Assembly (NCBI GenBank): GCA_028532985.1
Contig: JANCIK010000010.1
Coordinates: 744,001 to 808,000, forward strand
DNA from: Stropharia rugosoannulata
Taxonomy: Eukaryota > Basidiomycota > Agaricomycetes > Agaricales > Strophariaceae
Direction: 5' to 3'
Length of the DNA: 64,000 bases
Shown: positions 12,176 to 61,143 of the stretch, one piece after another
Position numbering within the stretch: position 1 is the first letter of the stretch
Layout of the letters: the number at the start of each line of letters is the position of its first letter
Notes under the pieces: generated by a model
What the model was told of the DNA's origin: nothing
Database searches by the model: none
Seen by the model: the letters and a program-made list of their open reading frames with translations, nothing else
Position numbers and translations under genes: made by a program

Positions 12176-12180
12176 CCGGC

Positions 12181-14689: not shown

Positions 14690-14690
14690 C

Positions 14691-18441: not shown

Positions 18442-18467
18442 TATAGTAAGTCCCAGATTTGCTGATG

Positions 18468-34481: not shown

Positions 34482-35605
34482 CACCTGGTGCACAACCAAA
34501 TAAATTACTGTAATTTATATGTAAGAAAGTTAATGATTTATTTAAAATAAATTTTAAAAAAACTACTTCATTTTCTTTGATGATTTATCTGATAAATTGA
34601 ATACATAAATACCAGTAATTTATTTGAATGTTTTTTGATAACTTATTTGGTTTTTTTTTTAAATTCATAAATAAACCATCTCATAATTATCTGCTATTTT
34701 TGTGCATAATTTATGTGAACATGTCACATAAAAAGTTACAAAATCTTTGAGAGAATTTTATTTGGAACTTTTTTGATTATATTCTTTCGATAAATGTTTA
34801 AAAAAATCCCATTAATTTATTTGAAAGTTACTTGGATATACATATCTAATTTGTGCCAAAGTACATCTGCTGTAGTAAAATCGGTGTGACAAATTTTGGC
34901 AAATGCACAGTGGGCAATTCTGTGGGTAAATCGGTATGGCAAATCAGGTGTGGCAAATTATGGCAAATGTGCAGTGGGCAATTCTGTGGCAAATTATGGC
35001 AAATGCGCAGTGGGCAATTCTGCGGCAAATTTTGGCAAATTGGCAGTACCTGCTCCGCTCGTCCAATGGTGAATTTATGCAAGTTGTGGCCGTGAAAGTC
35101 GAATTGGTCGTCCTCATGTTTTCACTACTGCAATGTACTGTTTAAGTGCCATATTTGGACACCCGTTAGTGCGGTACGCGGCGCGGCGGCGCTCTCCATT
35201 AAAAAGAGCAATGACTGCATGTCCTCCAGATCAGCTGCAGGCGACAAAGCATCATTCTGGTGAGGCAAAATGGAAATAAAAATAGAGTTGATTTAACGCG
35301 TTGCGACAGGTTGCCGCGACCAGGGATTCCCAGCATCGTCTCAGCCTCCTTGACCATACCAGCGCGGTGTACATACTTCCTACACTTGGTGTTCAGGAAA
35401 CGGTCAAGACCATTGAGTACTAGATGAGCCTCATTTGTTGCACGTGCCCAGCAGGTCTCCTGAGCGTTTTAAGGTACGAGCGCGCTGACAGGTGTAGTTC
35501 CGGAAGGGTAGGTGTGTGCTCCTTACCGCCCACTGTTCACCTTTGTCATCCGCGGTTGTCGTAGCTTCATCCAAAGACAATGCAGGCTGCTGTCCATAAC
35601 GCCTG
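34482..35605 (+). repeat. Left terminal inverted repeat of the giant element
   Basis: The outer 370 bp are very AT-rich with many AATTTATTTG-type motifs. Next come tandem units built on TGGCAAAT and GTGGGCAATTCTG (34,890-35,045), then about 550 bp of unique sequence. The reverse complement is at 60,020-61,143; one mismatch was seen near 34,843 (ACAT versus ATAT). Similarity fades beyond 35,605. Open frames inside this region are repeat translations, not genes. Confidence 0.85.
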
Positions 35606-36128
35606 TATCGTTTATACCTCAAGTCAAGTAACTGCAGGAAGATTCCAGCCAAATGTTTGCATATTCAAGCAGTGTCTGCGCTCACCACCTCCCGATCGGA
35701 TACAATTTCACTGCAGAATCTTCCTGTACAAGGATTCCCCCACCTGTGAACCCGAAAAAGTGTGCCCGCGCCATTAAGAAAATGTTAATGATCCTGCCCA
35801 TCACAGGCTCGCTCTTGCTCGCTCCCGCACACGCACACACGGTCTCCCTCCTTCCCATCCTCCCTTGCTCTTCACACGCTCGCTCCCGCCTGCCTATGGC
35901 TCCTCCTCTCTATATGCGTGCAATACTTTACCGTGTTCATACTTGGCCCCTTTACTCGTCGTCCCCTTGCTCTCGCGCGTCGAGACTCGCACCCTTGCTG
36001 CGCCCTCAGACAGAAAGCCCAGACACGCATACGTCTCCAGGCACTGTGTCCCTGCTGCACAACGTAGGTGCGCATCGCCGTGCATGCACCGTCAACGAGC
36101 GGCAAGCGCGGCTAGTTCCCCAGCAAGA
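35606..36128. other. Inner flank of the left repeat, no supported gene
   Basis: A pyrimidine-rich stretch with several tcgctcccgc-like motifs near 35,800-35,890. Open frames here lack motifs. It probably includes the promoter of the gene starting at 36,129. Confidence 0.35.
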
Positions 36129-37246
36129 ATGGAGGTTACCAGTTCACATGACGTGCCCGGGGGTACCGTAATACATGTGCTTCAAAACACAACTTCGGCC
36201 ACACTTTGGCCACACTACAGAATATTAGTGAACCGCAAGTTATGGCTTCTTTCTCATCTCATAATGATTTCATACCTGATGCTGAACCAACTTTCACGTT
36301 GAACTTGAAGTTCTCCACTGAAAACGTGGCTGACCCTTTCATCCTACCTCAACTAGTTGACCGAGGCGCCACTGCTGGGGACCGGGATGCCGCTTTGCAG
36401 TTAAACAGCGACAGTGGATCATATGTTAAACTGACCTCGGAAGACACAACTCTGCCTTTCTATTCAGGTAGCTTAAGGATCCTTGAAAATGCATCAGAGT
36501 AAGCCTACCATGCATGCTATGCTCCTCAGCGATATCGATCTAAGATCTAAATTACAGCGCAAAATTCGTTGAGCCTTTGAAGAATATAGCTAAGGGGAAT
36601 GGGAACATACGGCTTAACAGTCTGTGAGTAGCTATATTTTTATGTATCAGTCAACTGACCCAATTGTACATTGTAGGTGGAATAGCATTCCTCTTCCGAA
36701 GTCAAACTTGTCTGAGCCAGTGTCGCAGGATCAATCAATAGATCACATCGATCAAGTGTCAATAATAACTTCGGAATCGAGCAGAACTGCGCAGCATATT
36801 AGCACGCAAAGAAGCGTTGTAAGAGTCCCAAATACCCTATCCATAGCTATTTTTTGTCAGCATTTGAACAAATTTTTATGTAGGAACCAATCTACGACGT
36901 TTATTCACATCCCAAACCAAAAAAAATATATGACCGTGGTACTTTTCAATGGTATGCACTGAAAGGGCCAGGTATGCTGGAGAAGCCCCCCGCTTTTCCT
37001 AGCGGCGACTGCAGTGGAAAGACTATTGCAGTCAGAAATGGTGACATGTTTATATGCAGCAGTAGCAATGCTTTGCCGGCGCAGGCATGGATTTGGGATG
37101 GGAATGATTGGTGTTCAATTTCAGCAGGCCAACATCGAAGCATAGGAGGGATGGAATACATTTTCAAATTTGGGGACGACTTCTCGCCAAACTGGGTAAG
37201 ACTCTCGACAATGAAGCGACGCCTTCGGGCCTCCCGACGCAGTTAG
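36129..37246 (+). CDS. Orphan cargo protein, 295 residues, five exons
   Basis: Exons 36129-36167, 36221-36498, 36558-36623, 36677-36818 and 36884-37246 sum to 296 codons; all introns are 53-66 nt with GT..AG ends. The perfect phase of four junctions supports a real gene. The protein is mixed, with an N-terminal Ser/Asp-rich part and a C-terminal globular part (GPGMLEKPPAFPSGDCSGKT, VRNGDMFICSSSNALPAQAW, IWDGNDWCSIS) ending in a basic tail. No known domain. Confidence 0.65.
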
Positions 37247-40092: not shown

Positions 40093-41147
40093 TCAGGGCG
40101 GAGCGGAGAATGAAGCTGAAGAGTCAGTCGGTGGTTGCGGTTGAAGTCGACGTCGTGGTCGTGGTCGCGGTCGCAGTCTAGTTGTTTCAATGTCTGAAAC
40201 CGCCATGTTTCTAAACTCATCCTCCAACAAATTAGTTTGCCCCTTTTCTTCTACCCTAATCTCATGGCGACGTCTCTTGGCCTGTTCTAACACTATCTTA
40301 TCGCTTCTAGTAAGTTCGCCTTCACGGAGTTCGTTACTCTCGGGAAACATGCCAATCCCGTAAGCACTGCTGTCTCGCAAGGTCCTGAATGCCTCTTCTA
40401 TCTCTACATCACGCTCACCCTGGTCGTTCATGTCTTCTAGAATCAGACAGAGTGCCACTTCAGGTATAAAGATCCGCCTCAAAAACTCTTGTCGGGTTAA
40501 TGGATGGACAAGAGAAGGGTCTATATCTTGCAAAGGGAACAAGTCATACAGCATCTGGGCAATGATGCAATAACCTTGCTCGCCATAGCTAAGTATAATT
40601 TTGAATGAGAAAATAAGTCATAATAGCAATTCTGGTGACTTACTATCCTGTTAATCCATTCTTGAAAGTTGAATATTCCTGTATAGGCGAAAGAGGAGTC
40701 TTTTTGAGTTTCCCATTGCGCACAATCTCTAACCAAAAGATGTTAGCTCGACCTGGCGAATCCTCTAGTATGGCCTGAAGATGTGCTTTCAACCCCAAAA
40801 CACGCTCGGGAAGGCTATCCCAGTTAATTTCCTTTGGCCAACCCTTCAACTCTGCTTCAATGAGAACTTTGTTCTCAAAATTATGGCGCGCACAAACGTC
40901 GACAAACGCGGTAAACGGTGCACGTAACCCGGCAGGATTATCCGGCCTTGGTGACAGGGTAGAATATTTGCATGCATTGTCAATCAGTTGCAATAAGCGT
41001 CAAGATGGAGGTAATTCAAGGACCGTGTCGCAGTATGGGCAGAGAGTAATGCCTGACATTAGTGAGGGTTTGTGAGGTCGTCAGTGGTAAGAAAGGTGGA
41101 ACATGGACTGATTACTTACCCCGTTCAGTGGTTGTGACCGAGTCCAT
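40093..41147 (-). pseudogene. RTC4-like domain protein, three exons, with an in-frame stop
   Basis: Exons on the minus strand 41120-41147, 40644-41052 and 40093-40588 sum to 311 codons. The protein shows the agaricomycete RTC4-like pattern: an N-terminal CPYC finger, then PDNPAGLRAPFTAFVDVC, LKGWPKEINWDSLPERV, YYGEQGYCIIAQMLYDLF and PLTRQEFLRRIFIPEVALCL. The C-terminus is Arg/Pro-rich. RTC4 is named from yeast telomere-capping screens; its molecular function is unclear. A TGA at 41,000-41,002 interrupts the frame right after the finger (PPS, stop, RLLQLI); a CGA-to-TGA change would explain it. Otherwise the gene is complete, so it was probably broken recently. Confidence 0.75.
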
Positions 41148-41603: not shown

Positions 41604-42369
41604 ATGCCAGTGACAAGGTTGCATGCCAAAAATTCGTCAGATTCCAAGGCTGTTAATATCGCCGCATCCGGTAATGCGGTCCGAGAGACCCGCTATCACT
41701 TACGCCCACGATTCCCAAGAGACCATGATGCTGTCCAAGCGTCAACAGGAATAACCAGCTCTGCAGCAGCTCGCGGGTCAAAGGCACCAGTACTAGTAAG
41801 TGCAATGAACTCTATAAAAAATCGCGTTAGATTCTTTAACTAACACAGAGTATATTAACAGGTCCGAAGCACAGCTTCTACTAGTGTCACCAAACGGTAC
41901 AAAGCCGAGTACAGGAAAGCAAAAGAGCAGCTGGATGCACTAAAACGAAGTCTCGAGGAACAACATTCTGTAAGTCTCTTTAAAGATGTTGATTGAGAGC
42001 TGTGTTCTTATTTTTACCAGATCGTTGAGGCCTTAACAAATTTTAGCACCTGCCGTATATGCCTAGAAATAATGAGGAACCCAATTGTGTATGTAATTAT
42101 AAATGCATTTGCCTTACATTGAATTTGTTATCTAACGCGTTGTGGTACTCAGGCTGACATGCGGGCATATATTCTGCAATTTCTGTATAGTTCAGCACTC
42201 CAAGTTCTCTGCCGCCTGTAAAGACCTTGCAGAAACATCTAATATGGTGACATATGGAGGATATTTCAGTTGCCCTTGTTGTTTTGTCCAAGTACATCGA
42301 CGCATAAATTTTGCACCTGTGTGGGGTCTTAGCGATGTAGTAGCCAAGCTGCCGTGCTTGGCTGATTGA
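41604..42369 (+). CDS. RING-finger protein, 194 residues, four exons
   Basis: Exons 41604-41795, 41862-41969, 42021-42088 and 42153-42369 sum to 195 codons with GT..AG introns. The N-terminus is basic, the middle a helix (RYKAEYRKAKEQLDALKRSL), and the C-terminal half a C3HC4-like RING split by an intron: CRICLEIM, then LTCGHIFCNFCIVQH and, after a spacer, CPCC. RING domains bind two zinc ions and usually recruit a ubiquitin-conjugating enzyme, so an E3 ligase role is likely. It is cargo of the giant element, divergent from the RTC4-like gene. Confidence 0.75.
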
Positions 42370-44474: not shown

Positions 44475-45120
44475 GATTTGCACTTGCAATAGTGGATACG
44501 ATAGCGAATGAAGACGCAAGAGATTGGGTGGTTTGTTGGTAGTGCAGCGGTCTAAGGATACGGAAGGACACAGGTAAAGGTGCGCGTTTATATACAATCT
44601 CAGGCGGGCCTTAGAGCAACGCTACTTTTACCTACCTTTACAGACCAAGGCGGAAAATATGTATAATGTGATCAATATTTGCATAATCGTGAAAGGACAA
44701 GTTTCGAATATGGCACTGTGGCACTGTGGCTCTTGCGACGACTTGTGTGGCTTTTGCGACGGTGGTCTTTTCAGTCCTTTCAAAGAATTTAATCAATCCC
44801 TTTCACTGTTACTTGTTCATTCTGGGTATGTCTACCTTTCCCTGGACCCTCAGGCCGCAGGTGGTAAACTAGTATTAACTTTGCTCTGCTCGATAAAGTC
44901 ATAATTATTTGCAAATCTGGAACCATCAAATGCCCTACCCTCTAAGAGGCCCCATTCCCCAACTCTGCCTGGGTTGTTGTCGGCAGTAGAACGCCCTACT
45001 GGCGTCCCCCAGCATCGATTAGAGCGCAACGTCAAGTGTACCAAATTACACTCCTCGACATCACCTCCACTCCCTCCTGCTTCCTCTCCTGCGCCTAATT
45101 CCTTTCATCTAGCATACGAT
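44475..45120. promoter_or_regulatory. Divergent upstream region of the 92-residue gene and the Tnp2 partner gene
   Basis: About 645 bp between start codons at 44,474 (minus) and 45,121 (plus). The frame of the partner gene is open upstream to 44,974 but has no ATG there, so an earlier exon cannot be excluded. Confidence 0.35.
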
Positions 45121-48100
45121 ATGCAACCAGATTTTCATGAGTGTTCTTCTTTGTGGCACGCGTCGCAGGACATTACCAGTGGCACTGCCCCTCCCGTTTC
45201 GACAGAGTTGGTGGAACTGGAGTTGGAAGACCCTTGGCAAGCTAATACGATCCATGTACCTGTAATATCCCTGGACGGAGGCACCTATTCTTGCACAGCC
45301 CAAGCACCGACCTATGGGGACGACATTATGCCTATCTTCTCACCGAATGACTCTTTAACGAATGCCACCAACACTCCTTTCCAGATCATAGCCCATTCTC
45401 ACCCGATGCAAGTAATCTCTCATGAGTCTCCTGCTCACGAGGTAAATGCTCACGAGAATGCTCACGAGGAGAACATTCATGACGAGAATACTCATGAGGA
45501 GAACACTTACGAGGAGAACATTCACGAAGAGAACACTCATGCGGAGAACGTTTACTATGCGGTGTTGCAAACGGACCTAGGAAGGAAGCGCAAGAGGCCC
45601 CCGAGCCCAGATATTCCAGGTGGATCTCCCATTCAGCAAACTGAGCCAAACCTTGCCCCGACGCCGACAATCCGCCCCCCACCTAAGCGTTTTAAACCAT
45701 CTTCTCCGAGATCCGCTGCAACGTCTACAAATGCACTGCCACCAAGGATCTTGCGTGCCAAAGCAGTCCACCGAAAGCGCGGGTCATTAGTGCCAGCTTC
45801 TCAGGATGCCTTATTGAGAACAGCGCTTCAGAATAAGCACTTCACAAGTTTTCCATCCACTGCTTTCAGTTTCACCTCTGTAGGCTCGGACTCTGCATCT
45901 GCAAGCAGTGTCGAAAGCATGAACGCATCCGACTCGCTCCCATCAATTGATGGTGTTGAAACTACCAATGCACTTCTAGGAAGAATGCCACTTAATGAGC
46001 AACCCCAATTGATGGTGCAGGCAGACCAGCATGCAAGTATTTTTCTTTGCCAAATTTCACAATCTGATTATTTATGTAAAATAGTCGAAGCCTCTATCTG
46101 ATCCCTGTGCAACCTCCGCTCTACCTCTAGCGGGGCCATCAACGAACCAACAACTTTCTCTGTTACCGAATCCCATTGAACGAGTGAGCATGTTTAGCGT
46201 TTTTTTTTACTGTGCGTTCCCAACTAACCCATCATTAGATAGCAGCCATCTCAACTAAGGCGGACGATGAAAAATTTCGTACATCTCGGGTAGCAGCGTC
46301 GAACAGCATCACTTTACTCCCCTTTCCCGTTCAGTCTGTCCAAATAGTGAGTCGCTGCATCTTTAGTATTGTATTTACAGAAAAACTAATACCACAAAAG
46401 CCCATGTCCGTCTTTCCATTAACAGAGAACAATCCCAGCACCAATTTACGCTCAACTGCAGAAAGGTCTCTTTTCAGTAATGTGCCTGCTGCTGATGTAA
46501 GCTACTATGGTGCTCCGGAAAATGTCATAAATCGATTACCACCTCCGAGCGGACTAGAATCTAGTGGCCAACCAGACATGGATGTCGATTTGCAAGAACA
46601 GGCCTCTCTGCGTAATGCAGCTCAGGGGGGCAGTCCTTCTGCTCAAGCTATAGTTGACCCCATGCTAACGCCGGTGGCCCAAGAATTGAATGAGATAGTT
46701 AGCGACTATCCAGATGCTTTTGCAAGCGCTTTCGAAAACCCTTTCGAAAACCCATGGATCCAATTTTCGGAATCATCGACAAACCCCTCCTTCGTTAGCT
46801 GTCTGGTTGAATCGTTGTCATCGTTGGAACCAACCAATATACCTGCAAATCACCTTGCATCTCACATTCAAAAAGGAAAACAAAGGGCAACTGGTATTGA
46901 AAGATCCTGGGATTGCCTCTGCAAGACAGAACCTGTGTATATAAATGTTGGGACCCCTATAACCAACATACTGTCCCGTCAGAGTCAAACCCTTCCCGAC
47001 AACGACACAAGTCTCCACACCAGTTTCAATGCTGGATTTAGCTCTCCGGGCTTTGTAAGCGCTTGAGAAGATGTCCTCCACCAAATGGCTGTTGAAGACT
47101 CCCTTCCCACTAGGCAAAGGAACACAATCGAGGAACACGAGGACACTTCTATGGAGTTAGACGATGTACGCGACCGCAGCTATGGACATGGACAATGCAG
47201 GAGTGAGACAGACTGCGATCATGATGGCCAGGTGGATGAAGAACTTTCGCCTAATGCAAGAAGACGCGAGGTTCAGGAACTTGGTGATACTCCCATGGAG
47301 GGTGGTGGTGGCAGATTCAACCAGGATTGTAATGAGAATGAAATTCCCGGATCAAGCGATAATGAAGACGCAGAAGGTGCAGAAGATGCAGAAGGGGGTT
47401 ATGAAGCTGGAGAAGAAGAAGACGATGAAGGCGAAGGCGGAGAGACTCGAATTAGGCCCGTGCGACGTTCTACAAGCTCCCAGCAATTGCCGGCACCACA
47501 CCTTCATGCCGTGGACGCAGTGAGTTTAAGTCTACATGCATACCTTTTAATACTTAGTGATAAATGTTCAGTTCCAAACCATTGAGCATCTTATGCAGCA
47601 TCCGGTACGCTTCAATTTTTTCCCGCTAGCACTTTGTGAACTAATAGTTATCAAGGATGAACCTGTCAAAAACTCTGCTATGGCGGCCCTTATAGAAGTT
47701 TTAAACGGTCTTAATATCTCCACCCAGGATGCGATTCAGCATCTAGCAGCGAGCAGTTCCAGTCCTCAAGCGTCAAACAACAGAGTTGGGAGACCGCCAG
47801 CGTCACCAAAGACGGACTTTGGCGTTGTCCGACAGAATATCCCCACTTTAAACCTTAAGGTTTGTTTTTCATCTTTGTTAGTGCATATTCTTACTTATGT
47901 GCCTCTAGGCTGACATACGATCTTTGTTGAACGAGTTACTTGACATAACTGCTAAGAAATCACACCAAAGTTTACATGTCCCTACTCCTGAAGAACTCCG
48001 TCTGCATGCGAAAAATGCGAGCAATGCCCCACATCCTGAAATTTCCAAGCTTGTACTTGACCTGGACAGCTCAGGTGTCCAAACCCCATGGAACAAAGAA

Positions 48101-48809
48101 GCCGCAGATCTCTTTGCTCAAGAATTCATATCGCGCAATGATTATGACTGCAATGACCCCAAATTAATAAAGGCGGCTTTTATGACCTATCTTTTGACTC
48201 TGTGCAAGGACTACCGAGCGGCAAATGCGAAATTGACCGAGGTTCAACAGAATGATGCCATTGACGAGAAGACGCAGACAAAGAGATATGGGCGCAGGAC
48301 TACTGTAAGTTCATAATTTCATTTGATACGACTGATTCTCAAACCTCTGTATGCAGAGGCGGCATCGTCGCTGCAAAGCTTTGCAGCCTTTTTTGCACAT
48401 ACTCGGTATACCCCGCCTCAAGAAGGAGTTGGACTCGCTGCCAGTTGATGTTATGAGCAGAGATGAAACAAGCTATGACAGCGACAGTAATGCCTATCTT
48501 GTGATCACTCGAAGTAACTGGCGCAGTAAAGATGTTGACGATCTTGTGGAGATTTGCAATGTGTTAGATCTTTCGGCCTGTTTTAGTGCTGACAGGCGGC
48601 CGGATCGCGGTAGATTCCCCACTATTAGGCATCCATCGAGTCGCCCTGATTGTGACCGGCCTGTACCACTTCGCCTCCCTCGGAACTTTTACAATCCAGA
48701 TTTTCTGTTGACTTTGCATGAAGAGGAACGGAAGAAGTTGGATATGCACCCAGCCTTCACATTTACATTTCCAATACAACTCCTTCAGTTCATATACATT
48801 CATATCTGA
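45121..48809 (+). CDS. Tnp2-element partner protein (large, multi-exon, unknown function)
   Basis: Coding blocks: about 45,121-46,035, about 46,110-46,190, about 46,350-47,060, about 47,085-47,519, 47,572-47,604, 47,656-47,859, 47,909-48,304 and 48,357-48,809. The last five are in phase; junctions before 47,085 are less sure. The first block contains about eight repeats of the form HEEN(I/T), then Pro-rich and basic KRKRP and PPPKRFKP stretches. A Glu/Asp-rich region lies near 47,350-47,450. The last two exons (KNASNAPHPEI, RRTTRRHRRCKALQPFLHIL, NWRSKDVDDLVEI, LPRNFYNPDFL) have the pattern I associate with the second gene next to Tnp2 CACTA transposases in mushrooms. A DNA-binding helper role is an inference. 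Confidence 0.65.
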
Positions 48810-49011
48810 TTTATTTTTGTATAATGGCTAATGTACAGCAATGCAGAATCGCAGAAAGATATAGGCTTTCGAAGCACTGCAAATCAGCCCCTTTACCACC
48901 TAATGATCCCCGCCTGGGTAGGTATACCAAGCCTAGTACCCACCTTTTGCCTTTAGCCTAGTATAATAGAATGTTTCTAAAACCCTGTATATACATCCAT
49001 TGGATCACATA

Positions 49012-52000
49012 TCAATACTGTAAAGGAATAATGTGGGCACAGTCTCTCCTTATACTTTTGATAGGAAGAGGTGTATATCCTACATGGCAAACTACATTTG
49101 CGAAGGGAATAAGGATAATATCTGGTAGGAGTGAGCTGTAGTAAACCTGGCCGCCGGCAGGGAGTAAGCGGTAGGGGTCTTGCGCAACATCGCTTTCTAC
49201 TAGATCCTGATATTGATGAACAAGGGCAAATGACTGGGTAACGAATTTCTTTTGGGTTGCCGACCAGCGTTCATGGGTGAACAAGGCGGTCAGAATACCA
49301 CATTGTTGAGGCGCATTGAGAGTAGTTTGGAACAAAACACGGGCATTTTTTGGGTGGGAATGGCTCTGAAAGAGCTGTCCTGCGCGATCTATGCCACCAA
49401 CCAAACAAATAGTCTTTGGGATGACACTGGTATTCCCACCTTCTATGCGCAATATTAACATGCACAATGCATCGTAGATGCGACGAGGACATTGGCCAAA
49501 CCTTGTGGGACCCTTCACGGACTCATAGGGATCCTCAGTGCCAAGGATAGCGTCTTTGATACGAATTCCATGCCGTTTTTCATACACTTCAATAATGGGG
49601 TAGGCAGCGTCAGGGAGATGTTTCTGGTGGAAGAGAATGCGAAGGTTTTGTGCCTGGCAGAATTTCATAAACATGGTTACTTCAAGTTCACCTGAGATGC
49701 GTTGAATGAGATGTATGTTCACAAGGAATTAAAATTACCAACCAAATTTATTATTAGTAGGGATGCGTTGAATAAGCCCATTGTAGCGTTCGAAAGCGTA
49801 ACATCTCCAAGAGTGTGTAGGGCCAAAGCGGCGTAATTGATCTGCAAAATGTAAAGAGAGATGCTGGTATGGAGTTATTTTAGTCCCCGGGTATAACTTG
49901 AGGAGACCTTGCAGATACGTGTTCATATGCTTATCATATGCATGAATATCATCTTCCGTGATATGGCGAAGGTTGGCGTGCTTGACAGCAGCTACCAGTT
50001 CCATGAAATTATCCAACATTTGCCGGTACCGATTGGTTTTAGGTTTGCAGCCCCACAGCCGCGTCAAAGTAATAGGAAGATTTATAGTGCAGAATGACTT
50101 CCACTCTTCAGCTTTGAAATTTCCCCACTTTACTTCGCCCAGGTGCTTAGGTGCGCGGGAAACATGTGAAGGAAGGCAGAGTAAGACCATATCATCCTGG
50201 ATAGCCTTGAGTACGTCCCTTCCCAGAACAACAGTCTGCTTTTTTTCAAAACGAACATTAGATGATTGATCATCAGCATCAGATTCATTCTCATCGTCAT
50301 AAGCTTGGTTATGAGCCTGATGCACAGAATTCGGATGAAAATGCATTTCTTTCTCGCGCTGCATTTGAAAATGAGTATTAATGTACCTAAAAGCCTAAAA
50401 GTGAGCTAGAGACATACCTTAGCAAGGATACAGTCTATTAAAGACGCTTTTTTCATCTTTGTGAAGCTTTCACCAGATTGTAGGAACAACAAGTTGCAAA
50501 GGACCAGGAGAGACTGTTTGTGTAGTTTTGCAAGTGATGTCTTTGTGCCGGATCTATACGCTTCCATTACATGTTCTTCGGGCGTAGCTGCTGTAAACGC
50601 CACGTGCGATGTGTTTTCCGCTTGCAGATCTGCAAGGGGGTCGGGAATGTGTATTCTGTCTGCGGTAAACCATCCATGATCAACTCTCTGGGTGTTGTTT
50701 GGGCATTCTAATTAGTTTAGAGAAACAAAGAATAAAACAGCAAAGGCCACTTATGTAGTGCTGGAGTAATCTAACTAACTGTTTCGGGTTATCGTTGGGA
50801 TTTATTCCAGCCTTGCGGGATAGATGTTTAAGTGGAGCTGATCAATGCTGCCATTGCGCAGCAAGTAGTTTGCCTGTATTAGATGTTCTTCACTGGCATA
50901 ATATCTTTGCCCATCTCCATCGGCAACCTTGGTGTTCATCCCCCATATTTCCCGGATATGGCGGAAGAATATATGCAGAAAGAAACCGTGCATGGGGTCA
51001 ATAACTACATGCTTTGTTGGATCCCAGTAAGGTAGTCGGAGAAGCTCAGACCAACGCACTCCGTAAGTAGTGAAGACAGTTTCCTGGTCCGCTAGAGTTT
51101 TTGCTTCTCTCCACATGTTCACGTGTTTGAGATGTTCACAGCGATCTCTCGGGATCCACGAGTCTCGGTCTAGATTGTTTATATCTTTAAGGAAAAGGTT
51201 GCACTCAGAGCAAAAATGTTTTGCGCTGTGGAAACTATGCCCGGAGGCACATCGGGCAGCAGGAAGGTCGCAGACCAATGGCAACATTGCGCTTCGAACG
51301 GGGCGTCCTAGAGGATACTTTACCGTTTTCGTAATAAACACGCCTTCAGACCACAAGACCAGCAATTCATCCACCAAAGGCCCAAGGAAATGATTTACTT
51401 GATCCAAGCTTGGCTCGTTAGGACCAGGAACAATACCAACAAGAAATACATTCTCAGACTTGTATCGCAGGTCTGGCGGCAAGTTGTAGCATACCATATA
51501 GATCCCGCAGACAGATGCCTTCTTTCCGCCCTTTTTTTTACTGTAAGGACTAAAACCATCCATATTTAGGCCGAACACTAGGCGACCCTCATTTGCTGGG
51601 CCGCCTAACCATGGTGCACCATCTGGGCCTTGAGACTGTTGTAGCATAGAGCCATGCCACATATCCTTTAGCCCGCCAGATAAAGTGCCAATATTGCACG
51701 GATAGTCGTCGAGATACTGCTCAATATCAGGCCGTGCATACATTCTGCCAATCCATTGATGTAAGTCTTGGGAGAGAAAGCAACGGATTGGCTTCCCCTG
51801 GGATGTCAGCAATGCATGATCGCACTTTGGACTTCCTGCTGTAGGCTGATACGTGCAAGTCTTTGAGCAGGAAAGTGGGTTATTGGGGTCATATTTATAT
51901 GTACAAAAGCAGGCTGGGCAGCATGTGTAAGTGGAGAAGGTAGGATCAATTTCTAGGGCTTTAATGACAGTGCACACATCAGTCGGTATTGAATGCATGG

Positions 52001-53161
52001 CCTGGAAATGATCAACTTTTTCAGGCTCCTTGAATAGTACTGTCAAGACCATTTGTAGACACGACAGGACAAAAGTACAGTCGTCCGTTGGTAGATTAGC
52101 CAATAGATATAAAGCAGCAGCGAGCATGTAACATATGCATATAACAGGCTGCATAATCTTGGTCCTGACACAGAACATGCATGCTTTGAGAAGAGCTTCA
52201 GTCAGTTAGAGTGTTTGGGCTGTAATTTAACATGGGTAGACGTATAGGTATCTATTATCGGCCTATCCAAGGAGACATCAGGCAGGGCATCGACTTTACG
52301 CTGCCACTCCTCCTGTTTAATTTGCCTGAGCTTCACAAGTTCCCGTTCAATCTTTCTCATAAGTACGGTGGCTCGAAGGCGATTGTGAACAGAGGATAGT
52401 CCAGAGCATCTATAAGATCCTTCCTTGATACAGTAGCACATGTTCGAGAGCCAGGTCTCATGACTAATGAGTCCATAGTTTTCAGCGGCATCTTCAGCCA
52501 ACTGGAGCTTCTCGACTCCCTCAAGTTCGATGGGCGAATGGCTTGTCTGGCTCGTGGGGGTATGGGTAAATTTAAGAGGCTTTTCTTGGATGGTTTCCTT
52601 GAGGATTTCGAGCGGAAAATTGTGTATTTGCATGCCGATTAGAGACAAATCAGCAGTTAGTGGCGAGATAGTTCCAACTCTGTTTGTGGGGTTAAGAGCG
52701 GAGCCACGATGTCTCTGGGGCTTACGAGAAGCAGTTGGGCTAAGGATTTTTTTGGGCATCCGAGTACATTGCAGATCAGTTGAGTTTGCAAGATCGTTCC
52801 AACCGCTATCAGCAGCAGCAATAGAACCATTGTCAAAATCTTGAGTGTTTAGTCCGTCGATGAATTCAGCCATGTCCAAAGCCGAGGCGCCAACATGACC
52901 TAATGCAGAGTATGCGGAAATGGGATTTGCATTTGACATTTCAACCTGTGCCAATTGATTGAGTTTGACCAATGCAGAGCGTCTGTTGTTCTCCTCCCAC
53001 TGATGTATTTTCCATTCATACAGTGTAATCCTCTTTTCTGAGTCCTCTCCTCTGCGGTGGCCTTCTCTCTTGGCCTCGGTACATAGAGTACAATGGCATA
53101 GAACTAAGGATAGATTTTGCTTCTGCCTTGACTTAACAGGCCTAGCCACATTCGAAGGCAT
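49012..53161 (-). CDS. Tnp2-family CACTA transposase of the giant element
   Basis: Coding blocks on the minus strand: 52202-53161, 50751-about 52197, 50418-50707, 49743-50358 and 49012-49691. The N-terminus has a Cys/His cluster (LCHCTLC). The core has a CCPACF finger, CNIGTLSGGLKDMWHGS, NEGRLVFGLNMDGFSPY, FLVGIVPGPNEPSLDQVNHF and HVVIDPMHGFFLHIFFRHI, all Tnp2 hallmarks. Later come GPTHSWRCYAFERYNGLIQR and the C-terminal domain. The reading frame shifts by one base near 52,190 and near 50,812 without an intron I can place, so there may be two small indels or non-obvious splicing. This gene makes the 1.12 kb inverted repeats plausible as ends of its own element. Confidence 0.8.
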
Positions 53162-53679
53162 AAGTAGCTGCAATAACGATCCTGGAATGGAACCCGAGTG
53201 ATGGAATGGTTGTAAGGATAGAAGTCGTATTGAAAGAAATTTAGGTACCGACCCAGTAGCAGATAACGACGAGAACGTGAACGCGAAAGAATAACTTGCT
53301 GATATGCCGAAGGTCAGAGACAGGGTTACGGTTTGATTACAGTACAAGGCTGCTACTTGAGCAATATACTTAAAAGCTCCACAGAACAAAATGCATCACA
53401 TGCCTGATAAATCTAATTATAACGGAAGGTATAGAAACCAAGACGGTAGTACTCAAGTACAATATGTATATGCTCTGCAGTGGTATACACACAATGTAGT
53501 CCGCCATAAATGCTCATTAGTTCGATATCCCATAAGTGAGCGCATACACCATCGAAAATAAAGTCTCACGGCTTGCTTGACACTGCCAATATGTTGACAA
53601 TATGAGGTGGGCAGGCCTGCGTAAGTACACAATAGCAAAAAGTAAAAGTGAAAGTACTTAACAGTCTTTTCCTTCTCTT
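53162..53679. other. Upstream region of the Tnp2 gene, no supported gene
   Basis: The frame of the first Tnp2 exon is open upstream to 53,389, but the added residues look non-coding and the ATG at 53,161 precedes the Cys/His cluster. The remaining bases hold no recognised feature. Confidence 0.35.
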
Positions 53680-54140
53680 TCCCCTTCCTCTTCCTCTCTG
53701 GCTTCTCGCTCTCGCCTCCTCCCTATCCACGACGTCTGCTATCGGCATCTTCGAGCCCTCCTTCGCGGAAAATAAATGGCCTTCTTTTTTCGCGCCGTCC
53801 AGACCGGCCTTTGCTGCATACTAGACGTCCGGGTCTGCCACCTCATATACATCGTGCGGGTTACCTTCCTCGTCAAATATGGTCTTGGTACCCATGCCAT
53901 TCTCGATAATGATGTGCTTCGCGCAACGGAGCTCAACAATAAGATCATTATCGTCGTCTGCAATCGTCACGGTTGTGAACGTAAATACAACAAACGTATA
54001 ATACGAAGGCCTACACCTGTCAGTATTCATTGAGGCAAGAAGAAAAAAATTAGAAAAAACGCAGACACAGGACTACCTTGCCTTTGAGCGATACAGGAAC
54101 GCTCTCCCGTTGGGCATCAATAACATCGACGACGAAAGCC
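53680..54140 (-). pseudogene. Fragment resembling the C-terminus of a DEAD-box helicase (Dbp4/DDX10-like)
   Basis: Minus-strand translation gives VIDAQRESVPVSLKGK, an intron-like gap, then GMGTKTIFDEEGNPHDVYEV, a TAG stop, YAAKAGLDGAKKEG and MPIADVVDREEARARSQ followed by a basic tail. The FDEEGNPH..YE block followed by a KKEG / VD.EEAR / basic sequence resembles the C-terminal extension of Dbp4/DDX10-type ribosome-biogenesis helicases. The helicase core is absent. Assignment is from memory of the family and is tentative. Confidence 0.4.
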
Positions 54141-54387
54141 TTCTTCAACCTTATTTGTAGTTGAGATACTGATCATCGGGGATATTCTACAATGACGATG
54201 CAGTTGAGGACGCGGCCACCTCTCAATATCTTGCTCGGACGCTGGGTGCTAGCTGAGAGTCGATGGATGGAAGCTATCAGTGCACCCCGATGATCATGGA
54301 TTTCTATACGGGAACTTGGCGTACCTGATTATTAGCGAGGCCTTTACAAGTACAGTTTCAACGGAAGGTTGAATCTGGAGTCAGAGA
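54058..54387 (-). repeat. Inner inverted repeat, arm 2 (~330 bp)
   Basis: Reverse complement of 42,936-43,265. Together the arms enclose 11.5 kb containing the Tnp2 gene, its partner and the 92-residue gene. This arm overlaps the helicase-like fragment and ends just before the Nup84-like pseudogene. Confidence 0.7.
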
Positions 54388-54479
54388 AGGAAGGCAGACA
54401 AGAATATAAGTATGCTTGAAAGGGATAACACCTAATTTGTAGTATGTATGTGCCGCGGTCGCAGTAACTATAAATTAAT

Positions 54480-56440
54480 AATTTGCCGCCAGACTAGAGC
54501 CAGCAGCAGCGTCACACTCAGGAAAATTGTTGATTGATTAGGTCAAATTTTCCATTCCGGAGAAGTCGTCATAAAGCTTGTAGCGGCCATGTCTATTATG
54601 ACAGTGAGCGTTAAACAAGGCATATGAGGAATAAAATCAGGGGCACGCACTACCCTCTCTGTCCTCGGAAATAAGCCATGTCGTAGTAAGCGGCTTCATG
54701 AGCTGTTCGTATTCTGCAGCTCAATTGCTCCGTGCGTTGCGCGAACCTTCGACTGTACTTTCCTCGCCCTGTCACTCTACGATACGTGCCAATGTCTCCC
54801 AGATCACGAAGAACTGGCGATAGTGCAGATATTCTGTCAACACTTCTTCCGGTTCGCCTATCAGAGCAAGCTCCGCGGGGAGAACATCCAGTAGTGCTTG
54901 GGCCACTTGCACACGTCCTCGGCCTATGTAAAACACAAACGAACGGTTGAGACTCTTGAACACGACAAATATTTCACGCATAAGCACGTACCTAGCCAGC
55001 GTCTAAAAATTACCGTGACCTGTTCCAGGGCCACGGGATGTGTAGCTTCCTCAAATGCAGTTCATTCCACTGAGCGCAGCAGTAAAAGTTCCACGTCCCT
55101 CCGGGGAGCTTGGTGCGGGTCTTGGGGGGACGGGTCAAGTTCCTCGAATGGCACCTGGATAATGCGATCCGAAAAGGTGACAGAAACGCGTGTTGGGTCT
55201 AGGCCCGGGTGATTAGGACTGCACCACAAAAAGTTTGCACGGAACATACCTCGAGAATAGTGATATATCAATCAAGAATGGCCTGAGCTGCCCGTAGGGG
55301 AGCTGCGACTTCAATATCTTCAGGAAAAGGCAGAAATGTGCAAGAAGCGGCATGTAATGTTGTACTTGATAGTACGGAGATGTGGTCAAACCGACTACTC
55401 TGGTAATCACATTTTTGAAGACCTTCTGAGAATATGCTGAGTTAGTCCTATTCAGGATAGCTGTTTCTGTTCAGCTTTATTTTCCATTGAGACATGGCAC
55501 ATATCATCTGAATTCTTATCCACTGCTTCCGCACCATTCTGCCAGTTGCTAGCTTTGCAAGTTCGCTAGCAATTTAGTCTCAGCAGACAAGATGCACTTC
55601 TGCTCGTAAGTGGCCCTCCCATGTTCTGCACGAGCTTATCAGTATGTTGAAAGTATATGGTGTGGTAAAGTGACACACGTAGAATACGCTCTTGATCATA
55701 GAGTTTGGGCTACTGTGTATCGTTAGCCGTAATATTATTAAACTATGTGTCACTTACGCTCAATACTGCACGAATGAAGGCTGCTTTCCACAGCAGTTAA
55801 CGATGGCGGTTGCCTGACCAGACCGGTGGGTCGTCTTCTTCGTCCGTCAATATCGTTTCGCTAACAGTTGCTGCCACAATGATTAGCTAAAGAGGTTTAA
55901 CAGCTTGTAAGCGGCGTACAAAGCATCCGTTTGGATCCGCATATCCGCCTAATGCCTGAATCAAACTTTCTCCATAGCTCTAATTTGCGCGTCAGACTCC
56001 GTAATTTTCACAGTCATGCGTTGATGCACTTACGACATTGTCACCTGCCAAAGGTGCCCCCTCACCTCTGCGCACCACGTCTGGATCCATCTCCGAGACG
56101 AGTCTTTGGCGGGGGGCGTACCCGATCCGCATATTTTGCATGATTGTGTGCATGCTAAACTTCCAGTACCCATTAATTGCTTCCGGGCGTATGGGCGACA
56201 GTGCGATCTCCTGTAGCCATTCTCTGACGATGAGAAGCTCTTTGTGGAGTGGGCTGACGCACATAATCGCGTTTGCAAGGGTACTAGGCGTGCCGTAAGG
56301 GTTATCAATAAAAAGTTTAGGGAAAGCATGGAGGGGTTTCAGTTTTATGTTCCCTGACAAAAATTCAGATGTATCCAAGGTTTGAAATTTGCAATATCTT
56401 ACAATAGTAGTAGCAAACCCCAAGTGTTTTGTGTGAGGCG
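54480..56440 (-). pseudogene. Decayed Nup84/Nup107 nucleoporin gene fragment
   Basis: Going down the minus strand in protein order: ELLIVREWLQEIALSPIRPE, INGYWKFSMHTIMQNMRIGY, MDPDVVRRGEG, SYGESLIQAL, DDPPVWSGNRHR, SCRTWEGHLRAEVHLVC, LLAHFCLFLK, VELLLLRSVEW, LDVLPAELALIGEPEEVLTE, YLHYRQFFVIWETLARIVE and RYKLYDDF. This is the order and spacing of fungal Nup84 (Nup107 family), a scaffold protein of the nuclear pore. Stops (for example TAA after NRHR) and frame changes occur throughout, and introns are partly kept, so it is a DNA-level copy, not a retrocopy. The N-terminus is not clearly present. Confidence 0.75.
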
Positions 56441-57230
56441 TAGAATCTCAATTCCCCCCATATGTTGTGCCTCTGTCAAACTGTTTCTCCAGTTCTTCAA
56501 TCCTGAGTGAGGTATTAGCAAGGTAGGTTCAAATAAGTAAACAACGCACTGAGTTTGGCATATATGTCGCATACGTTGCGCATACGAGCTCGGTGTCCTG
56601 TTTCTGGCTCAAGAATTCAGGACATCTGAGTTAGACAGGCATACAAAAACAGAACCTCTGTGCAGGGGGCATAAGAACTATAGTGTATTCAGGATAAGAT
56701 GAGTTAAAATAAGTTCTGGAATCTGAAGGAGCATTGCAACAATTGCCTGAATAAAGTACGGGTTACTGAAAGGTACAATTACAACTGCCCAGTCTGTAAA
56801 GTCACATCAGGTGACCCTCCACGCAACAGGATTAAGTAGTCACGCTTTGCAGGCGTAGTAATTAATTGGAATGATAAGGCCCAAGGTAGACGCGAACCTC
56901 CAGGCGAACTCTCCAGCTCTACTAGCCTCCATTCACCTCTGCCTCTCTGGACTCCGCCAGCGCAGCTTTGGCATCCGATTTCATGGACATGGACAGAACA
57001 ATATTGCGGAGAGTGCGAAGTTTAATTTTGCACCCAGAGGCCCGAGCAAGCAAGAATGGCAAGAGATGGAAGAGCATGCAAGATCAGGTACAGAAGTGTT
57101 GGACGAAGAGGAAGTGAATGAAGAGCCTGAGACACCACCAGAAGCAGATGAACCGAGGAAATGTGGGCATCGGTCGTCGACGCCTTTTTCCTTACATGCA
57201 CTAATCTATGCGTTATTTTCTCTGTAAAAG
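56441..57230. other. Region between the Nup84-like and Rad51-like fragments
   Basis: No intact gene. The plus-strand frame at 56,871-57,227 contains a charged stretch (PRGPSKQEWQEMEEHARSG, then EEEVNEEPETPPEADEPRK) that looks coding, possibly another captured fragment, but I cannot identify it. Confidence 0.35.
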
Positions 57231-57236
57231 CATATA

Positions 57237-57890
57237 GGATTGTTCCCCTAGGATTTCAGAGTGCCACGGAAGTCCATGAGCGTGGGTCAGAACTGGTTCA
57301 CGCACTACTAGGAGGTGAGTGAATCTCCCTGCTTTTACCAAAGCGCCACTAGTAAACTTTGTTCTCGTAGGCGGTATCCAGACTGGAGCTATCACAGAAC
57401 TCTTTGGTGAATTCAGTACTGGAAAGTCGCAGCCATGCCATATGCTCTCTGCACATCGAAATGGAGGGAGTTTCTGGACAACGTCGCATATGCTTTGCTA
57501 ACGAGCACAAACATGCTCATTTCCTAGTCGAGGTGCGCTTCTTTTTTATTTGCATATATGCGATTTTTAAACTGGAATGTGTAGATTCTATTTGTGAATT
57601 GTGGCTTAGTTTACAGCTCTTACCATACAGACTTCAGTGGTTGAGGCGAGCTTGCGTCGCTCCAGGACCATCTGGGCAAGTTCCTGAGGACCCTACAACG
57701 ACTACTAGCAGATAAAGTAGGCTTTTCACCGTTCCAGCAGCATTTCTGTACTGACTTTAATTGCAGTTCGGGATAGCTTTAGTAATTACAAACCAAGTCA
57801 TGTCAAGCCTAGACGCCACGGCGGGCCCGTATGTAGGGAATGAGAAGAAGCCCATCGGCGGAGATATTATGGGCCTATGGCGCAAGCATC
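57237..57890 (+). pseudogene. Decayed Rad51 recombinase fragment
   Basis: 57,248-57,312 gives LGFQSATEVHERGSELVHAL; after an intron-like gap (GTGAGT..GTAG), 57,371 onward gives [20 protein letters not shown], with a Walker A close to the Rad51 consensus GEFRTGKT. A later stretch at about 57,766 gives FGIALVITNQVMSSLDA and NEKKPIGGDIM, matching the Rad51 FGIAVVITNQV and KKPIGGNI region. Stops and frameshifts separate the blocks and much of the core is missing. Introns are partly retained, so this is a genomic fragment. It cannot encode a working recombinase. Confidence 0.75.
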
Positions 57891-58097
57891 GACGACGCGG
57901 TGAGTCGGACGTGCTGGGTGATTTTTGTCTTGCTTCGGATGCTGATGGCGGTTCTCGAGCGGGTGGAGCACCTTTGGGCGGAGGGTGTCTGTGGTCCCCT
58001 TGTGTACGCGGAAGCGGTCTTGGATGTTGATGGAGGAGGCGGAGGTGACAAGGAGGCAATGGTGGATGCCGTTCTGGAGAGAAATGAGGCTCGTTAA
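57840..58097 (+). pseudogene. Possible further captured coding fragment, unidentified
   Basis: Directly after the Rad51-like end the next frame is open and looks protein-like (WVIFVLLRMLMAVLERVEHL, then LVYAEAVLDVDGGGGGDKEA). It has no start signal or known motif. It may be a fragment fused during capture, or chance. Confidence 0.3.
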
Positions 58098-58343
58098 AGG
58101 GGCTGGAGTCATTTCGTCCACAAATCACTGTGAAGTATCTTCACAGCCGGGAAGTGGCAACATATTTGCAAACCGGGATCACTCATGCCACTCGACCACT
58201 GCTATGAAGCTCTAAGCTTTTGAGAGTCAAAGCATGGTCCAGGCCTCGGATAGATGAGTATATAAAAGGGGCCAGGGGGGTGGTTTATCCCCTTCTCGTC
58301 CTATACTACCATCTCAAACTTCGACTAGGATACAGCTTATACA
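58098..58343. promoter_or_regulatory. Upstream region of the 360-codon orphan gene
   Basis: About 245 bp upstream of the ATG at 58,344. TATAAAAGG at about 58,260, some 80 bp before the start codon, is a good TATA-box candidate. Confidence 0.5.
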
Positions 58344-59591
58344 ATGCTATCTCATGAACAAGCTGAAATTTCGGTGCCAGTGGCTGATAGTTGCATATCC
58401 ATAGAATCCAATGGCACAGGGGTAAGTCAAATTTGGTTTGCTGTTGAATCGCCTTATAAGAATGCAACAGCAGATCTCCAGCGTGTCTTATATCCCACCC
58501 GCCTTTGTTATCTTCTGTACACCGGTGAATCACAATTATACTTTGGTGTATTATTGCAATAAAACTGACTTACAAAATTGCAATAGCATGCCACCAACAT
58601 CATTAACATACCACAGAATGGCACCAGCGTCACTTCTCAAATTCCTGCTGTCTGTATGAGCGAGAACGAGGACTTCTCCATTGAAGGAATGACCCAGGAA
58701 GACATTCTGTCCTCTGCCATCAATAAATCCAAGGAGCTGTGGGACCTTGTTGCTGAGCCGAAGTTCTTTGCATGCCTTCCTGGAGACTGGCTGCGGAGCA
58801 AATCGAACTCCCTCAAGTTTACGACAAGTACTGTGAAATCAATTCTCACTGTCATTGCCGGGGAGCACGCGATGAAGACAGTGCGAATTTATGCTCCTGC
58901 AATGCAAGATCTCGACGGATCCCCCGCCAATTCGGGTGCGCATGTTGTCCCTGTCCTTGTGGGGGGTCTGCCGAAGAACATCTACGATAACATTGTTTGA
59001 GAAAAAGCCACACTATATTCTTGTCCACTTGGCACGGTCGTTACCCGCCCTTACGCCGTTCTGACTGCAAAATTCATGTTAACACTTCAACCGGACTACT
59101 ACATATCCGAGATTTCGATGTCTGACTGTAACGCTGTGTACAAGGCCGTTTGCGATATCATCACTTCTGAAGGATCGGCACTTTTCCGCGCGCTGTCAGA
59201 GCAACATGGCAGTGCTGTTTCTGTTTTGTGCGCAGAATACAATAATATTCCACAGGAATTAGCGCTAAACCCTGCAACTAGGATTCAGTATATCAATTCT
59301 ACGGTACAGGTGAAAATGTTCATAGTAAAAGGAGATGGACTTGTCTGCGGCCAGAACAATGCAAAGGCATATTTCAACGTCTACATGGAGCCCCCCAGTT
59401 GCAAAGCTAATAGCTACAGGCAATGGGTTTCCCTTTTGAAGGATCGCAATGTCACTCGCTTCGTAGTGGCCGAAGGAGAACTTACAGTGACTCACCTGTT
59501 CTGTGACCATTGCACTTCCTGTGTTCATCCTAGCCAGCTTTGTCCTTATCGAAACTTAGATGGATTCTACGACACGCCTTTCCCAGTCTGA
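58344..59591 (+). pseudogene. Orphan cargo gene with a Cys-rich C-terminus, one in-frame TGA
   Basis: Exon 1 is 58344-58421 and exon 2 is 58587-59591, phase matched. TGA at 58,998-59,000 ends a 163-residue product, but the same frame then stays open for 196 codons to the stop at 59,589-59,591, including a second protein-like part (PDYYISEISMSDCNAVYKAV). I read this as one gene of about 360 codons with a single nonsense change (GTT TGA GAA; CGA to TGA would explain it). The alternative is two genes, with the second starting at 59,076. The C-terminus has a cysteine cluster, CDHCTSCVHPSQLC, that could bind a metal. No known family. Confidence 0.55.
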
Positions 59592-60019
59592 AGTCGACAA
59601 CGTTCACCTTGTTATCGGGACGGCAGTGATTAGTGGTTGTAGACGGAGAACATGACATTACTCTAACAGTAAATTTCGTACTGCGGACAGTAGCTTTTTC
59701 CTGCAACCAGCGCCTTTCTCCTTAGGTTGATCATGTGGTCACCCTTAGTTCCTTGTGGACGTAGCTAGATCTTGAATTGTAACAATAGCTATGTACCGAA
59801 GACTTTGTCCATTAGTTAGTAAATATATTAATTGCACTTCACTTTTCCGACTTGTGTTACCATTTGCACTAAAACTTCGCGCCAACTAGCCCCTGAGCAT
59901 TTGAGCGTTAACTTGTCCATGCTGAACTCAGACCACGCTGACCGCGTCTTTGGCTAAAGTCCCCATCTGCGGGCTTCCAGGAATCTGAACTCGAGCAATA
60001 TGCCTTCATCACAACGCGC
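59592..60019. other. Downstream region before the right inverted repeat
   Basis: No gene supported. It is AT-leaning and lies between the orphan gene and the right terminal repeat of the giant element. Confidence 0.35.
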
Positions 60020-61143
60020 AGGCGGTATGGAACAGCGGCCTGCATTGTCTTTGGATGAAGCTACGACAACCGCGGATGACAAAGGTGAACAGTGGGCGGT
60101 AAGGAGCACACACCTACCCTTCCGGAACTACACCTGTCAGCGCGCTCGTACCTTAAAACGCTCAGGAGACCTGCTGGGCACGTGCAACAAATGAGGCTCA
60201 TCTAGTACTCAATGGTCTTGACCGTTTCCTGAACACCAAGTGTAGGAAGTATGTACACCGCGCTGGTATGGTCAAGGAGGCTGAGACGATGCTGGGAATC
60301 CCTGGTCGCGGCAACCTGTCGCAACGCGTTAAATCAACTCTATTTTTATTTCCATTTTGCCTCACCAGAATGATGCTTTGTCGCCTGCAGCTGATCTGGA
60401 GGACATGCAGTCATTGCTCTTTTTAATGGAGAGCGCCGCCGCGCCGCGTACCGCACTAACGGGTGTCCAAATATGGCACTTAAACAGTACATTGCAGTAG
60501 TGAAAACATGAGGACGACCAATTCGACTTTCACGGCCACAACTTGCATAAATTCACCATTGGACGAGCGGAGCAGGTACTGCCAATTTGCCAAAATTTGC
60601 CGCAGAATTGCCCACTGCGCATTTGCCATAATTTGCCACAGAATTGCCCACTGCACATTTGCCATAATTTGCCACACCTGATTTGCCATACCGATTTACC
60701 CACAGAATTGCCCACTGTGCATTTGCCAAAATTTGTCACACCGATTTTACTACAGCAGATGTACTTTGGCACAAATTAGATATATATATCCAAGTAACTT
60801 TCAAATAAATTAATGGGATTTTTTTAAACATTTATCGAAAGAATATAATCAAAAAAGTTCCAAATAAAATTCTCTCAAAGATTTTGTAACTTTTTATGTG
60901 ACATGTTCACATAAATTATGCACAAAAATAGCAGATAATTATGAGATGGTTTATTTATGAATTTAAAAAAAAAACCAAATAAGTTATCAAAAAACATTCA
61001 AATAAATTACTGGTATTTATGTATTCAATTTATCAGATAAATCATCAAAGAAAATGAAGTAGTTTTTTTAAAATTTATTTTAAATAAATCATTAACTTTC
61101 TTACATATAAATTACAGTAATTTATTTGGTTGTGCACCAGGTG
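60020..61143 (-). repeat. Right terminal inverted repeat of the giant element
   Basis: Reverse complement of 34,482-35,605, nearly base for base, including the T10 run, the TGGCAAAT tandem units and the outer AATTTATTTG motifs. The outermost bases are TTGGTTGTGCACCAGGTG, followed by TAT at 61,144. Confidence 0.85.

Follow-up and report, generated by a model that had tools for sequence, protein, structure and literature searches.

How large can a CACTA transposon become, and by which route would it reach such a size? CACTA transposons are usually regarded as modest elements with short ends. The window studied here, a stretch of 64,000 nucleotides of the basidiomycete Stropharia rugosoannulata (C10:744001-808000, C10 being contig JANCIK010000010.1, in a genome searched over 47.97 Mb and 20 contigs), raises the question with a segment of 26,662 bp at window positions 34482-61143, which very probably represents one insertion, complete at both ends, of a giant CACTA/EnSpm-type DNA transposon (CMC/CMCT clade) moved by its own Tnp2 transposase. 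Its outer limits are as follows, in window coordinates:

34479..34481, no strand, left target-site duplication (TSD) TAT, outside the left end, single in the empty paralogs L046 and L047
34482..35605, plus strand, left terminal inverted repeat (TIR), 1,124 bp, begins CACCTGGTGCACAACC, 99.64% identical to 60019-61143
60019..61143, minus strand, right TIR, 1,125 bp, from BLAST of the window against itself
61144..61146, no strand, right TSD TAT, the same as on the left side

When the left arm is aligned by self-BLAST with the reverse complement of the right one, identity reaches 99.64% over 1,125 columns, the differences amounting to three substitutions and one single-base indel, and a 1.1-kb match of this quality is far beyond chance. 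The arms enclose an interior of 24,413 bp and TAT lies directly outside each of them. A sequence-only reading of this DNA had described almost identical inverted repeats of about 1.12 kb, some 24 kb apart and flanked by TAT on both sides, and was accurate on these points as well as on the limits of the left arm; the right arm, which it placed at 60020, starts at 60019. Regarding the target, the 1.2-kb left flank (window 33282-34481) has at least 31 genome matches including itself, and because all 31 matches listed lie on C10 between 697,578 and 1,132,078, the repeat at the insertion site seems confined to a single region of the chromosome. Two of these paralogs, not counting the element's own flank, reach the insertion point, and both (L046 and L047) align without a break across the joined flanks, at 85% and 91% identity, with one TAT in each. 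Since the paralogs read through the junction with a single TAT, the whole 26,662-bp segment arrived as a single insertion that duplicated 3 bp of the target, as the earlier proposal that it moves as one unit would have it.

The search of the genome with the TIR returned five matches, namely the element's own two arms, the two arms of a larger relative and one gene piece on C7, and none of the five is a copy of the 1.1-kb repeat ending independently; such copies are what the sequence-only reading had named as fatal to its proposal. It had also suggested looking for other copies with the same ends and for short derivatives made of ends, and both kinds were found. The larger relative, at C7:1750793-1827840, measures 77,048 bp, has related tips CACTAGGTGCAC (CACTAGG, mirrored at the other end) and shows AAT on each side; its arms of 3,054 and 3,357 bp differ by 23 mismatches in 3,054 aligned columns and by one 303-bp indel. 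Its left flank has 22 genome matches and its flanks belong to a repeat family different from that of the window element's. Here likewise the flanks are found without the element: BLAST joined both of them in five of the five paralogs cut out (a sixth locus being the element's own flank), and the letters of a single-AAT junction were recovered by exact string in four of the five (L033, L034, L035 and, twice, L036; not L037).

A 24-base tip pattern, allowing at most 3 mismatches, gave seven genome matches and none in a reversed control. Four of the seven are the ends of the two giants, two delimit a short element of 277 bp at C12:2757755-2758031, which has ACT on both sides, and the last is a single end at C7:1537091 that looks degenerate and for which no partner was identified within the surrounding 5 kb. 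As both tips are present in the C12 element and similarity is limited to about 80 bp at each of them, it is a short derivative and does not represent the 1.1-kb repeat on its own. The duplication is thus 3 bp long in three elements (TAT, AAT and ACT), with a single copy in the empty paralogs of both giants.

The 77-kb element also contains Sad1/UNC and RPB1 fragments, a weak WD40 match, a retrotransposon region that looks copia-type by eye and has direct repeats of 301 bp, 99.7% identical, and a 1.6-kb element present twice, with inverted ends of 223 bp, one copy of which shows Tc1-type transposase domains. It is itself nested in another repeat (C7:1750406-1750792 and 1827841-1828227), and the DNA surrounding that outer repeat has an uninterrupted counterpart at C10:734023-735565, where the BLAST coordinates overlap by 8 bp, a hint of the outer repeat's own 8-bp target duplication.

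Judged by its sequence, the window element belongs to the CACTA/EnSpm superfamily, as the earlier reading had it, because of its 5'-CAC..GTG-3' termini (CACCTGG.., mirrored at the opposite end), the 3-bp length of its TSD and its Tnp2 transposase motifs, to which subterminal repeats can be added. The short TIR of tens of base pairs that is typical of the class, without defining it, is replaced here by arms of 1,124/1,125 and 3,054/3,357 bp; size, kilobase TIRs and a conserved accessory core are what is unusual for a CACTA element. The transposase gene, whose presence the sequence-only reading had recognized, and the gene next to it, which it had called the partner of Tnp2, are described by two rows (E, expectation value; ORF, open reading frame):

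49015..53395, minus strand, Tnp2 DDE transposase gene, five ORF segments, PF02992 at E 4e-17, 80% identical to the copy in the 77-kb element
44905..48958, plus strand, core gene 4, which probably encodes a DNA-binding partner of Tnp2, with 49-80% identity to the 77-kb element in four segments

In both giants, Tnp2 has the motifs NMDGF, CDLPA, CSEC, HLSLH and FERYNG, holding the D, D, C(2)C, H(3)H and E residues that are presumed to be catalytic from RAG1/Transib alignments. D216, D313, C332 and C335 are invariant in 15 aligned sequences, in an alignment that stops short of the last two motifs. A DUF4218 match in the same protein (E 2.7e-05) is below its cut-off. Relatives of Tnp2 in the protein database number 449 at E <= 0.001, among them proteins 58% and about 50% identical and one of Pleurotus ostreatus at 42%; PF18759 stands beside PF02992 in 15 of the best 120 of these 449 and is not listed for the window Tnp2 in its Pfam scan, and a search of viral contigs with Tnp2 gave no match. 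The genome has at least 27 matches to Tnp2, of which those in the two giants score 1,132 and 872 bits and the next, at C6:2888165 (36%), 269 bits. At the latter, taken as the one control locus, no inverted pair spans the gene within 30 kb: the inverted rows are one of 30 bp at 90% (E 0.005), one of 70 bp at 71% (E 0.76) and three of 16-21 bp. Two further Tnp2 loci, C7:2688129 and C13:926651, score 183.1 and 183 bits with equal 677-aa frames and possibly represent a recently active ordinary CACTA family.

Gene 4 is common to both giants, and its role of partner is a probable one. A frame-by-frame comparison of the giants identified six common genes: gene 1, an RTC4-like gene, a RING-like gene, gene 4, Tnp2 and gene 6. 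Hence, where at least five genes had been expected beside Tnp2 and its partner, five besides Tnp2 are shared with the 77-kb relative. The remaining four are:

36152..37243, plus strand, core gene 1, several open segments, common to the 77-kb element, with ratios of nonsynonymous to synonymous substitution (dN/dS) of 0.19 and 0.37
40096..40999, minus strand, core gene 2, RTC4-like domain protein, two ORF segments, PF14474 at E 1e-09, dN/dS 0.23
41859..42366, plus strand, core gene 3, tentatively a RING-like zinc-finger protein, RING families at E 0.002 and weaker, dN/dS 0.22
58587..59588, plus strand, core gene 6, LINE-ORF1-like protein (LINE, long interspersed nuclear element), 61% identical to a 333-aa frame that is uninterrupted in the 77-kb element

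Over 16 segments aligned between the window and 77-kb elements, synonymous divergence (dS) is 0.69-1.18 and dN/dS 0.11-0.64, with 0.12 in the core of Tnp2 and, in gene 4, 0.11-0.64 overall and 0.11-0.13 at the C-terminus. These values indicate purifying selection, clearly so for most segments and more weakly for the N-terminus of gene 4, gene 6 and the N-terminus of Tnp2. The similar dS values suggest that one common ancestor of both giants already held the six-gene set. Outside these genes the two giants are not alike, and what each has there includes pieces of host genes.

Concerning the individual genes, the RTC4-like gene has three genome matches, the third being a longer gene at C6:1113698-1114445 that is probably the host's own homologue. 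The RING label is tentative because all RING matches are below the curated cut-offs. Likewise, gene 6, for which the Pfam scans of both giants' frames gave no family, is likely LINE ORF1-like by sequence: its C-terminal 91 residues resemble, in a single comparison (26% identity, E 5e-09), the ORF in front of an endonuclease-like one at C2:3776359, and the label is not firm because the endonuclease match is itself below its cut-off. That C2 locus (L026) is a probable non-LTR (long terminal repeat) retrotransposon whose first ORF has its C-terminus in common with gene 6. A weak search with one segment of gene 6 (59001-59588) gave none at E <= 0.001 among 29 protein-database candidates. Structure models helped with neither gene 6, where the model was discarded at a mean predicted local distance difference test score (pLDDT) of 30.8, nor gene 1, where a fold assignment was dropped with a mean pLDDT of 62.4 and 442 PDB matches at E <= 10, of which 0 at E <= 0.001.

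Besides this core, the element carries pieces of host genes, as had been announced from the sequence, and at least three can now be named (Nup84/107, Rad51-family and NatA auxiliary subunit), one of them lying within the TIR itself:

55500..57154, no strand, captured host segment including a Nup84/107 gene fragment, three collinear pieces, 79-83% identical to C12:377733-380203
57169..57900, no strand, captured segment including a Rad51-family gene fragment, 78-86% identical to C3:3146596-3147487
35065..35521, no strand, captured NatA auxiliary subunit gene fragment in the left arm, 83% identical to C7:1175026-1175504
60104..60560, no strand, NatA-subunit fragment in the right arm, letter for letter the same as the left copy (arm positions 584-1040)

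The positions 55500 and 57900 are the limits of the queries, and these captures may reach further. PF04121 was matched at window 55995-56447 (E 2.3e-12), and the C12 locus matches positions 20-402 of the same profile in three frames, the pattern of an intron-containing gene; the Rad51-family fragment matches PF08423 (E 1.1e-06; 1.3e-07 and 1.3e-08 in two frames). The C7 locus behind the arm fragment is a host gene encoding PF12569 (E 4.6e-20), which we take to be the gene usually named NAA15; the arm's own frame at 35202-35468 gives PF12569 at E 1.9e-05, below the curated cut-off. As annotated, the cargo is of two kinds, a core as deep as the transposase and passengers consisting of gene fragments; captured DNA also makes up part of the TIR. 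In a three-way alignment, both arms carry the same changes relative to the host gene. An identical fragment bearing identical changes would speak for a single capture, followed by copying from arm to arm or by continued conversion. More generally, arms within one element are 99.2-99.6% alike apart from indels, and the outermost 362 TIR columns are only 75% identical between the window and 77-kb elements, which suggests that a long TIR enlarges when DNA is captured at one end and then copied to the other.

The arms hold a further feature, repeated GGCAAAT motifs near each tip:

34897..35040, plus strand, left arm, 8 GGCAAAT (7 of them within TGGCAAAT) in one orientation, 8 forward and 0 reverse
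60585..60728, minus strand, right arm, subterminal GGCAAAT cluster at the same 8 arm positions as on the left, 8 to 0

In the four arms of the two giants the motif is oriented 8:0, 8:0, 16:0 and 32:0, with a density of 5.2-9.5 per kb against 0.21-0.25 in the interiors (about 25-45 times); the 24.4-kb interior of the window element has six on both strands together. CACTA elements have direct and inverted repeats below their tips, according to the portion of PMC8978399 at hand, and GGCAAAT is here direct only.

Taken together, these features would fit the following mechanism. The Tnp2 DDE transposase would join the two ends and move the whole 26.7 kb, leaving the TAT duplication, and a second element-encoded protein would probably assist it by binding the directional TGGCAAAT repeats near each tip, GGCAAAT being thus a putative binding site. 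The conserved accessory genes (RTC4-like, RING-like, LINE-ORF1-like and one unknown) would travel beside the transposase, mostly under selection, and the family would pick up pieces of host genes as passengers. Once captured near one tip, DNA could later be copied onto the other, by gap repair or gene conversion between the arms, giving rise to kilobase TIRs; we propose that this is why arms stay nearly identical within an element while diverging between elements. Protein-DNA binding, cut-and-paste chemistry, the route of arm copying, the roles of the accessory genes and present activity are what we infer and not what we observe.

How does this element compare with known systems, as described in the portions available to us of the papers cited here? 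Fungal CACTA/EnSpm elements (Kojima 2025, PMC12730594) have the same CAC..GTG ends, 3-bp TSD and C(2)C and H(3-4)H transposase motifs, and they also carry extra genes, which are there TET/JBP dioxygenases, the accessory set being different here; no kilobase TIR appears in the parts of that paper examined and RTC4 has 0 occurrences in its main text. Plavaka belongs to a related CMCT transposase clade and differs by its termini (TGT..ACA with a 2-bp TSD for PlavakaA, CATCA..TGATG for PlavakaB; PMC12730594), which are CACCT/CACTA in the present elements. An enlarged, multi-gene EnSpm of the CACTA class, 16-20 kb long with 4-5 ORFs, is known from Chondrus crispus (cited in PMC6431247, a 2019 review), the giants described here reaching 27 and 77 kb. 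In plants, the longest Tpn1-type/Pack-CACTA element has 40,619 bp (Hoshino 2016, cited in PMC8195511), the lettuce LsC1 has a 28-bp TIR and elements were found through 28-nt TIRs (PMC8195511), and Pack-CACTA elements capture host gene fragments (PMC13317346). CACTA ends, 3-bp TSD and captured fragments are thus common ground with the plant elements (PMC8195511; PMC13317346); unlike them, the window element encodes its own transposase, has a shared accessory core and holds captured DNA inside its TIR. Indeed, Pack-CACTA elements are non-autonomous and filled with host fragments, whereas the fragments are here accompanied by a predicted Tnp2 gene with all five motifs. Among giant elements, Starships, of which Tremella fuciformis has eight of 41,942-605,797 bp (PMC13066641), are also cargo-carrying and fungal, but rely on a tyrosine-recombinase captain in place of the DDE Tnp2. 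Teratorn (41-182 kb; PMC6431247) has in common its giant size, a transposase and long inverted repeats, and differs as a piggyBac-herpesvirus fusion with 18-bp TIRs. No prior report of a giant or long-TIR fungal CACTA element was found in the titles and abstract starts of the open-licence papers listed, and of 736 papers matching RTC4 together with transposons, the 10 listed do not contain RTC4.

Other explanations of the locus have to be weighed against a giant CACTA transposon moved by its own Tnp2. Two opposed copies of a 1.1-kb element could have flanked host DNA that never moved, and the 277-bp end-only derivative, with its own duplication, does indicate that ends can exist without the interior. 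Yet TAT flanks the 26.7 kb as a whole, the paralogs run without a break through the place where all of it is inserted, the interior genes recur in a second element elsewhere with its own duplication and empty sites, and the searched segments of genes 1 and 4 (36884-37243 and 48336-48806) match the genome only inside the two giants, all of which makes such a composite very improbable. It is hardly more credible that the assembly is at fault, having joined haplotypes wrongly or created a false inverted repeat. Kilobase repeats this similar are indeed easily misassembled, but such an error does not generate 3-bp duplications that match, empty paralogs in which the triplet is single, or a second element with arms of its own. 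At 27 and 77 kb, the giants come within or close to the size range of transposon-virus hybrids such as Teratorn and of Starship-like tyrosine-recombinase elements; however, the Pfam scans, which covered selected frames of both giants, listed Tnp2 (and the nested Tc1-type domains in the 77-kb element) and, among these frames, no tyrosine recombinase, viral replication or capsid family and no piggyBac or herpesvirus genes, while TSD and ends are of CACTA type, leaving this explanation with very little chance as well.

A more substantial objection would be that an ordinary CACTA element was passively swollen by captures, its extra genes being decaying passengers and its long TIR a one-off accident. 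The Nup84/107, Rad51 and NatA subunit pieces are fragments, dN/dS rises to 0.4-0.64 in some segments, and host fragments are on record in large CACTA elements of plants (PMC8195511, in the part seen). Against this, the five non-transposase genes are shared at the synonymous depth of Tnp2 with dN/dS mostly well below 1, and kilobase arms exist in both giants and are far more alike within than between elements; we consider passive swelling unlikely. Several observations nevertheless count against the giant-transposon interpretation or parts of it. Gene 6 of the window copy, which also counts in favour of passive swelling, is interrupted by an in-frame TGA (58998-59000) where the frame of the 77-kb copy is open, and its dN/dS of 0.33-0.45 denotes weaker constraint, as do the N-terminal segment of gene 4 (0.64) and the N-terminus of Tnp2 (0.41). 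Genes 1 to 3 differ in order and orientation between the giants, and the 48336-48806 segment of gene 4, a single exon, found none at E <= 0.001 among 18 protein-database candidates. The empty sites are paralogs and not alleles; only two giant copies were found in the genome, so that copy number gives no sign of activity. Moreover, no Pfam family was hit in the inner part of the TIR of the 77-kb element, so that the captured-gene evidence for arm copying comes from a single element, that of the window.

The giant CACTA interpretation can be extended, in a form that is possible and on balance slightly doubtful: these elements of 27-77 kb might represent a lineage of giant self-encoded CACTA transposons, the DDE counterpart of Starships, with a selected accessory core (RTC4-like, RING-like, LINE-ORF1-derived protein and an orphan), in which TIR growth and cargo capture are one process. 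The two copies (27 and 77 kb), each of which has kilobase TIRs, a 3-bp duplication and empty sites and which have a core in common, show that the CACTA class has carried very long DNA, and a host gene fragment present in both TIR arms offers a concrete and testable route to the formation of long TIRs. If the accessory genes aid movement or the escape from silencing, such elements would be a second kind of giant fungal cargo carrier besides Starships.

Finally, the window contains several other features. Within the element, an inner inverted pair of about 325 bp (42935-43259 and 54060-54383, 94.8% identity), with no shared flanking duplication evident, probably consists of two copies of another small repeat. 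Outside it, an 870-aa open frame at 25639-28248 on the minus strand has a strong Plavaka transposase match (PF18759, E 1.1e-121), and a KDZ transposase with a CxC2 cysteine cluster is located at 3425-6260 on the plus strand. Frames for a zinc knuckle, reverse transcriptase, RNase H and integrase mark a retrotransposon region at 11618-19253 on the plus strand, the assignment being based on Pfam for 11618-12172 and 14655-16640 and on inspection by eye for the remainder. A 633-aa frame at 20395-22293 on the plus strand shows weak NB-ARC/AAA matches just below cut-off and possibly encodes a fungal NLR-like protein.

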